A DNA stretch of 64,000 bases from Agriterribacter humi (lineage in GTDB: Bacteria; Bacteroidota; Bacteroidia; Chitinophagales; Chitinophagaceae): NCBI RefSeq assembly GCF_009192765.1, contig NZ_VOHQ01000002.1, forward strand, positions 620,001 through 684,000, written 5' to 3'. The notes beneath the pieces were generated by a model that worked only from the letters and a program-made list of their open reading frames with translations, ran no database searches and had not been told where the DNA came from. The position numbers and the translations under genes were made by a program. This document shows positions 50,436 to 52,395 of the stretch, one piece after another; the stretch's first letter is position 1, and each line of letters begins with the position of its first letter.

Positions 50436-50507
<72 letters not shown>

Positions 50508-50529
50508 CTGAAAGGAATTGAAAAGTGAT

Positions 50530-50603
50530 GCAGTTATAGTTCAGTGGTAGAGCATCCCGCTGTTAGGGCGGGAAGGTCAAGGGTTCAATTCCCTTTAACG
50601 GCT
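50530..50603 (+). tRNA. tRNA-like unit 1 (apparent GTT, Asn-like anticodon; atypical anticodon arm)
   Basis: The D arm and the whole 3' half (AAGGGTTCAATTCCCTTTAA onward) equal the preceding tRNA-Thr(GGT). The anticodon arm is instead TCCCGC-TGTTAGG-GCGGGA, a 6-bp stem and 7-base loop without T at position 33. The acceptor has an A-G mismatch at its third pair. The identity (Asn by GTT) is doubtful. Confidence 0.5.
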
Positions 50604-50625
50604 CTGAAAGGAATTGAAAAGTGAT

Positions 50626-50699
50626 GCAGTTATAGTTCAGTGGTAGAGCATCCCGCTGTTAGGGCGGGAAGGTCAGGGGTTCAATTCCCTTTAACGGCT
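50626..50699 (+). tRNA. tRNA-like unit 2 (same atypical anticodon arm)
   Basis: A near-identical copy of unit 1 exactly 96 bases further on, with AGGGG replacing AAGGG before TTCAATT in the T arm. The same doubts apply about its anticodon and charging. Confidence 0.5.
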
Positions 50700-50721
50700 C
50701 TGAAAGGAATTGAAAAGTGAT

Positions 50722-50807
50722 GCAGTTATAGTTCAGTGGTAGAGCATCCCGCTGTTAGGGCGGGAAGGTCAGGGGTTCTCCCGAAGATTCGGGACCCTTT
50801 AACGGCT
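50722..50807 (+). pseudogene. tRNA-like unit 3, T loop broken by a palindrome
   Basis: This is the third tandem copy, 96 bases after unit 2. In the T arm the four bases AATT are replaced by a 16-base palindrome (50779-50794), which destroys the T loop. It is expected to be non-functional. Confidence 0.75.
50779..50794. repeat. Short palindrome inside tRNA-like unit 3
   Basis: TCCCGA-AGAT-TCGGGA is a perfect hairpin, preceded by TTC and followed by C. The same frame (TTCTCCCG ... CGGGAC) recurs at 52379-52396. Confidence 0.75.
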
Positions 50808-52330: not shown

Positions 52331-52395
52331 AACGCCCATGTAATTTTTTTCATTACAAAGTAATGTATAAAAGGGCGTTCTCCCGCTGTGCGGGA
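52331..52395. repeat. Nested hairpins and a TCCCGC/GCGGGA palindrome before secE
   Basis: AACGCCC (52331-52337) pairs with GGGCGTT (52373-52379), enclosing CATTAC-AAA-GTAATG (52351-52365). Directly after follows TCCCGC-TGT-GCGGGA (52381-52395), a relative of the palindrome in tRNA-like unit 3. Confidence 0.65.

Follow-up and report, generated by a model that had tools for sequence, protein, structure and literature searches.

Three tRNA-like units follow one another directly downstream of a tRNA-Thr(GGT) gene of Agriterribacter humi. Are they tRNAs of unusual decoding, RNAs with another role or decaying duplicates of their neighbour, and how did a palindrome come to occupy their anticodon arms? 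We have examined them in the window (the whole stretch of DNA analysed, 64,000 nucleotides, G000:C12:620001-684000, from a 5.69-Mb genome), in the rest of the genome, in related genomes and across the phylum.

The tRNA-Thr array and its decoding capacity

The array lies 3' of Thr(GGT) in a cluster with the order tRNA-Thr(TGT)-Tyr-Gly-Thr(GGT)-tuf-Trp-secE (gene names such as tuf and secE were assigned from sequence). At 50478-50778 Tandem Repeats Finder detects 3.1 copies of a 96-bp repeat, with 99% matches. This repeat, the Rfam scores and direct sequence comparison bear out the three tandem Thr-like units of the preliminary description. Each unit copies the tRNA together with its spacer. Compared with the parent tRNA-Thr(GGT), all three carry the 5' changes C3->A, G7->A and C11->T, keep the D loop, 3' half and spacer, and have the anticodon arm TCCCGC-TGTTAGG-GCGGGA in place of the native Thr arm. 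The likeness to the parent described earlier holds for the 5' changes, D loop, 3' half and spacer, but is less complete in units 2 and 3, which have one additional change (AGGTCAAGGG to AGGTCAGGGG), and in unit 3, where the T-loop AATT is swapped for a 16-nt palindrome, TCCCGAAGATTCGGGA. The absence of a T at position 33 is correct if the stem is read as 6 bp, as ARAGORN does; in a 5-bp reading the loop is CTGTTAGGG and T33 is present.

Palindromes of the form TCCCG-N(2-14)-CGGGA occur six times in the window compared with 0.33 expected from shuffles. The nine-base identity noticed earlier between the anticodon arm and the palindrome preceding secE is real, the two being of the same short type, and the latter is possibly a related remnant. 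It follows GCGTTC and in this resembles the unit 3 T-loop palindrome, which follows GGGGTTC.

Table 1. Features of the array and of the neighbouring palindrome (positions are those of the window)
Feature	Position	Strand	Evidence
Parent canonical tRNA-Thr(GGT)	50436..50508	+	ARAGORN; Rfam RF00005 74.2 bits
Unit 1, full-length pseudo-tRNA-Thr with palindromic anticodon arm	50530..50603	+	RF00005 57.2 bits; ARAGORN 'tRNA-Stop(tta)'
Unit 2, like unit 1 with one T-stem change	50626..50699	+	RF00005 55.2 bits; ARAGORN 'tRNA-Stop(tta)'
Unit 3, like unit 2 with T-loop palindrome	50722..50807	+	RF00005 40.7 bits; no ARAGORN call
Unit 1 palindromic anticodon arm, TCCCGCTGTTAGGGCGGGA	50555..50573	+	Sequence, pattern count
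Unit 2 palindromic anticodon arm	50651..50669	+	Sequence, pattern count
Unit 3 palindromic anticodon arm	50747..50765	+	Sequence, pattern count
Unit 3 T-loop palindrome, TCCCGAAGATTCGGGA, immediately 3' of GGGGTTC	50779..50794	+	Sequence, pattern count
Lone palindrome, TCCCGCTGTGCGGGA, in the tRNA-Trp to secE gap, immediately 3' of GCGTTC	52381..52395	+	Sequence, pattern count

The units are unlikely to decode. Their role as decoders is doubtful because canonical Thr(TGT), Thr(GGT), Thr(CGT) and Asn(GTT) tRNAs are all present in the genome (30 tRNA loci were examined of 44 Rfam places) and because ARAGORN reads units 1 and 2 as 'tRNA-Stop' with anticodon TTA and misses unit 3. A functional cloverleaf has a 5-bp anticodon stem, a 7-nt loop, U33 and an intact T loop; here the arm is 19 nt long, the call is 'tRNA-Stop(tta)' and the T loop of unit 3 is broken. 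The checks proposed at the outset gave a divided answer in tRNA calling, with all three units above the Rfam tRNA gathering score of 29 bits but with stop calls or no call from ARAGORN, and a clear one in gene counting, where the Thr and Asn tRNAs were found. The units are therefore not canonical tRNA-Asn genes unrelated to tRNA-Thr: they are Thr copies, and a canonical tRNA-Asn(GTT) is located elsewhere. The loop CTGTTAG differs by two changes from TTGGTAG, a native Thr(GGT) loop of relatives, and by three from TTGGTAA, that of the parent tRNA in the window; since it lies so near these native loops, the Asn reading looks coincidental. With canonical tRNAs elsewhere, Thr-derived units and a loop of this kind, we rejected both an Asn and a stop-suppressor reading. 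The analysis gave no support to unusual decoding. It did support the suggestion of decaying tRNA-Thr duplicates, in that the units are altered derivatives of the adjacent tRNA, as are tRNA pseudogenes and partial duplicates.

Other tRNA genes of the same genome have similar neighbours. A same-strand partial copy scoring at least 60 lies beside 6 of the 30 examined tRNAs (Thr GGT, Asn, Ala, Arg ACG, Arg CCG and Pro GGG), the best opposite-strand control scoring 24; for the Thr array itself the scores are 82.5 (same strand) and 20.0 (opposite strand). Upstream of tRNA-Arg(ACG) at L021 (G000:C1 near 529879-529952, minus strand) lie three copies in tandem; their anticodon arms are almost native, and each has CCTGCCTGCCGGTAGGCAGG in its D loop. 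At L087 (G000:C5:149200-149917), tRNA-Ala 5' copies form a 93-bp tandem array that continues as far as the C5 contig end, and the copies 5' of tRNA-Ala on C14 (L090, G000:C14:45200-46000) are almost the same in sequence. The tRNA-Ala copy array may have broken the assembly.

A widespread class of palindrome-armed tRNA copies

When the array was used as a query, 34 of 38 genomes, that of the window included, had a match. Three genomes of the same genus (G008, G009 and G010) each carry two partial, similarly armed Thr copies 5' of the intact tRNA, with arms such as TCCCGCTTTGGGCGGGA (G009) and TCCCGCTGTTAAGCGGGA (G010), and two genomes of other genera (G017 and G020) carry armed Thr copies 3' of the tRNA. 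The proposed search of relatives has thus revealed the same kind of copy, differing in place and number, and these differences occur even within the genus. Thr copies of the array type are absent from G001, G002, G005 and G007; of these, G001 and G002 have Gly copies with TCCGCC palindromes and G007 has an Ala copy at another site. There is no match to the array in G003, G004 or G011, and in G006 a contig break falls inside the Thr tRNA.

The class pattern GCRTCCCGN{2,14}CGGGANGGT is present in 91 of 294 genomes of the family (reversed control, 6 genomes), spanning 49 of its 101 genera, and in 66 of 395 genomes of the phylum (reversed pattern, 5). Some of the phylum matches in distant families are non-palindromic and probably due to chance. 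With a stricter pattern, at least 118 stretches were found in named genomes; among the matches listed are Chryseobacterium, Marinirhabdus, Indibacter, Parapedobacter, Aequorivita and Flavilitoribacter, together with metagenome-assembled genomes (MAGs) labelled Armatimonadetes, Verrucomicrobia and Acidobacteria. These MAGs (L182, L242 and L238, respectively) show parts of the class architecture, reflecting either spread past the Bacteroidota or MAG contamination. The window units belong to a large and widespread class of 'disarmed' tRNA copies in the Bacteroidota. We found no description of such arrays, or of bacterial tRNA-linked GIY-YIG elements, in the open-access literature, which is weak evidence of absence.

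The 228 units collected fall in 158 loci, mostly found with the TCCCG pattern, so that most unit statistics are motif-selected and the share of TCCCG should be read from the protein-selected loci described below. The nearest tRNA call is on the same strand for 179 units (within 310 bp for 155), on the opposite strand for 3, and lacking in the fetched stretch for 46. At the loci examined the copies are partial and derive from the adjacent Ala, Val, Lys, Arg, Met, Pro or Thr tRNA; a palindrome-armed copy beside its own intact tRNA is found both in the window and across the class. A full locus has the order 5' copy, intact tRNA, GIY-YIG ORF and 3' copy, although variants occur. Its 5' copy includes the acceptor, D arm and rewritten arm and ends near the T loop; its 3' copy starts at about the D loop, includes the rewritten arm and is complete at the 3' end. 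We retained 198 units with a similar adjacent tRNA, dropping the others, and removal of repeats left 189. Among these, 79 of 98 upstream copies extend to the tRNA 5' end and 2 match through to its 3' end, with the match ending between -2 and +4 of the T-loop TTCRA in 50 of 96; of 91 downstream copies, 59 match through to the 3' end and 13 to the 5' end. The window units are whole at both ends, like a minority of class copies. The repeat unit is about 0.34-0.43 kb (for example, 358 bp in L154 and 426 bp between copies in L149).

Rewritten stems and linked GIY-YIG genes

In the TCCCG copies at the examined loci, the native stem is replaced by TCCCG…CGGGA and the loop is still like that of the neighbour. 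The mean edit distance between the rewritten loop and the native loop of its own neighbour is 3.39, compared with 4.21 for shuffled partners (142 distinct cases; none of 2000 shuffles as low). Complementary bases occupy the sixth stem position in 71 of 74 distinct upstream arms and in 70 of 71 distinct downstream ones (shuffle means 52.2 and 50.1). Native-like loops and sixth-pair complementarity together indicate that the stem has been rewritten around a largely inherited loop. For the TCCCG class this does not support the earlier idea of a foreign palindrome invading the anticodon arm: a REP-like insertion has a loop unrelated to its host site, and these loops are nearer native than shuffled ones. 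Capture of the pre-secE palindrome was rejected as the main account since the loops follow the native tRNA. Loops read as their reverse complement, too, lie slightly nearer native than shuffled ones do (4.08 compared with 4.30; 4 of 2000 shuffles), so that arms may have been inverted. The two arms at L108 (G264:C1), of which the upstream one is TCCCGAAAGCATTCGGGA, are exact reverse complements of each other, a relationship that suggests hairpin inversion.

The kind and place of the palindrome vary with the tRNA. It is TCCGCC near position 40 in some Met copies, CCTGCCTGCCGGCAGGCAGG at position 40 in Leu(CAA) copies and TCCCCACAG in copies at two Asp loci; it lies in the D arm of Phe copies and in the D loop of Arg(ACG) copies. 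The Leu(CAA) and Arg(ACG) copies do resemble plain palindrome insertions. Across the whole genome the TCCCG palindrome has 85 matches, tRNA arrays included, compared with 25 for the reversed pattern, and the stem is absent from the 45 commonest hairpin hexamers in a 400-kb sample; these palindromes are at best weakly a generally abundant genome repeat, and we discarded that explanation. In 464 kb of the genome, window included, CCTGCC stems gave 9 matches at 7 places (1.1 expected) and TCCGCC stems 3 (0.2 expected). It is puzzling that the same TCCCG/CGGGA stem is found so often on copies of different tRNAs, each with its own loop.

A GIY-YIG ORF lies within 600 bp of 100 of the 228 units, on the same strand in all 100 cases, and is not found within this distance of the other 128. 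These tRNA-linked ORFs are of about 80-90 codons. PF01541 was detected in the three proteins scanned (best E 1.3e-17), and each of six active-site columns is conserved in 86 or 87 of the 87 proteins compared; the domain includes the catalytic Tyr, Arg and Glu. A profile (A1) built from seven proteins at loci met via the TCCCG motif has matches in 70 of 117 family genomes at E<=1e-10. We then took 70 nuclease loci from the match list, the 30 best matches and 40 picked by hand. An unarmed same-strand tRNA lies within 700 bp at 59 of them (61 if every ARAGORN call is counted) and is missing at 11, and the TCCCG palindrome is present at 33. A tRNA ends less than 150 bp upstream of the ORF at 46 loci, of which 40 have a partial copy 3' of the ORF (score at least 45) and 6 no clear 3' copy; among these 46, the upstream tRNA at L318, called as Leu, is probably itself an armed Lys copy, and the same miscall gives one row of the 87-protein tree a wrong label. 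This protein-selected set contains 115 partial copies, 51 with TCCCG, 23 with other hairpins, 21 with none and 20 native, a count that includes repeats and true adjacent tRNAs.

The nuclease lineages cluster by tRNA type: the tree of 87 proteins requires 32 changes of tRNA type, compared with 62.2 in shuffles (none of 200 as low). Two groups were read off the tree by hand, with Met and Arg(TCT) represented in both. In one group 19 of 26 proteins have TCCCG nearby, in the other 5 of 24 (p 2.8e-4, relatedness ignored and with weak support, 80/71, for the split).

The window array has no GIY-YIG ORF at its own locus. The 13 PF01541 places in the genome all lie outside contig C12, and sister loci with a GIY-YIG ORF include Ala on C14, Pro on C1 and Asn on C23. 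Among the loci examined, no GIY-YIG gene lies within 500 bp of any Thr(GGT) tRNA; Thr calls near such genes are limited to Thr(CGT) at L170, Thr(TGT) at L264 and, at L108, an armed Ala copy miscalled Thr(AGT). The window array is therefore tied to the nuclease by class membership alone. For two small GIY-YIG genes of this genome (L128, G000:C23:5293, and L134, G000:C8:2750), the 3 kb fetched contains no tRNA call and the score with the tRNA-linked profile is lower; they are perhaps a separate lineage.

Origin of the copies

We favour, with a probability of roughly 0.6, a reading in which the units are non-decoding tandem copies of tRNA-Thr(GGT), the class often accompanies putative homing-type GIY-YIG elements that parasitise tRNA genes, the palindrome disarms the copies and the window array is a footprint of such an element. 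The nuclease would cut the tRNA gene, and repair would insert a copied element or expand the element into tandem copies, tandem tRNA copies thus being by-products of element activity. The partial copies would supply flanking homology and the intact tRNA within the element would keep the host alive. The palindrome may spoil the nuclease site, the tRNA function of the copy, or both, and the window array would be a full-length footprint from which the nuclease gene is absent. Simple immunity requires an extra assumption, because the intact tRNA beside each element retains the presumed target.

A possible precedent, by analogy, is SegB of phage T6. This GIY-YIG homing endonuclease cuts inside tRNA genes (PMC13096335), with a preference for RAWTSGAAC that is not a strict requirement, and tandem amplification of a tRNA-Tyr segment in T6 depends on it. 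We note that the reverse complement of the motif, GTTCSAWTY, reads like a T loop. The class shares with SegB, a free-standing enzyme of T-even phages, the GIY-YIG catalytic domain, a site beside tRNA genes and tandem tRNA copies (in SegB, the T6 amplification; PMC13096335). Unlike SegB, the class ORFs, of about 80-90 codons, are cellular and have an intact tRNA on one side and a palindrome-bearing partial copy on the other, and their cutting activity is putative.

The copies might instead be by-products of duplication whose arms were rewritten because, in a transcript containing both, a native arm would mispair with the intact tRNA, which is essential. In ViennaRNA predictions, the anticodon stem of the intact tRNA has a mean pairing probability of 0.73 beside the real upstream copy, which drops to 0.33 beside a native-armed one (n=72); the values are 0.67 compared with 0.28 for downstream copies (n=27) and, in the window, 0.99 with the real units compared with 0.00 if all three were native-armed. 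A random stem (0.72, 0.69) or shuffled arm (0.72, 0.64) serves about equally, however, so this leaves both the perfect palindromes and TCCCG unexplained. In some copies, moreover, the anticodon stem is native or nearly so and the palindrome lies in a loop instead, that of the D arm or of the anticodon arm (Arg ACG, L021; Leu CAA, L373/L374). Given that protection does not depend on which non-native arm is present, and that native stems persist in some copies, such insulation is at most part of the reason for the rewriting, and as the full account we judge it unlikely. Site immunity and insulation both fit the data. Ordinary decay, in which dispersed palindromic repeats strike neutral tandem tRNA duplicates and the GIY-YIG genes are incidental, would accommodate the CCTGCC and TCCGCC stems found above expectation outside tRNAs and the more than half of units that have no nearby nuclease ORF. 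The native-like loops, the complementary stems, the strong nuclease linkage always on one strand and the unequal motif use between nuclease groups make it distinctly improbable. A functional tRNA or tRNA-like RNA (a UAA-decoding suppressor, an odd Asn or Thr isoacceptor, a decoy or a regulatory RNA) is very improbable indeed. Most of the acceptor stem and the T arm do remain, the Rfam scores exceed the cut-off and hairpins are maintained throughout the class; against this, the units have an A3:G70 mismatch as well as the enlarged arm and the broken T loop of unit 3, most class units lack one end, copy number and position vary inside the genus, and the genome has its canonical Thr and Asn tRNAs.

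Nor do the copies correspond closely to other known systems. Like tRNA pseudogenes or truncated duplicates they are lower-scoring, truncated or altered and adjoin the parent gene, but they have a recurrent architecture, a palindromic arm with a native-like loop and nuclease linkage. REP/BIME and the Rickettsia palindromic elements are dispersed bacterial palindromes, short and G+C-rich; the class palindromes are likewise short and G+C-rich and some lie outside tRNAs, but TCCCG-class copies have an anticodon stem that was rewritten in situ around a loop that is still partly native. Integrative elements with attachment sites in tRNA genes duplicate a tRNA fragment there, as occurs at the class sites; here, in contrast, the short repeat unit has room for little beyond the nuclease ORF.

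Beyond what had been described from the sequence of the window alone, these results add a wider class and its association with GIY-YIG endonuclease genes. For annotation pipelines, such units are best treated as pseudogenes. More tentatively, and at somewhat less than even odds in our estimate, the nuclease reading might extend to phylum-wide, undescribed minimal mobile elements: tRNA-specific GIY-YIG homing units that carry a working version of the tRNA gene they disrupt, use tRNA halves as homology arms and bear on each half a palindrome typical of the nuclease lineage that makes the copies non-decoding and uncuttable, arrays of the window type being fossils of repeated attacks. If this is true, tiny selfish nucleases would repeatedly attack tRNA genes in many Bacteroidota, and their activity could explain tRNA calls that look odd or suppressor-like as well as some of the assembly breaks seen at tRNA arrays. 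It would also provide a natural system in which the parasite of an essential RNA gene rescues that gene with its own copy.
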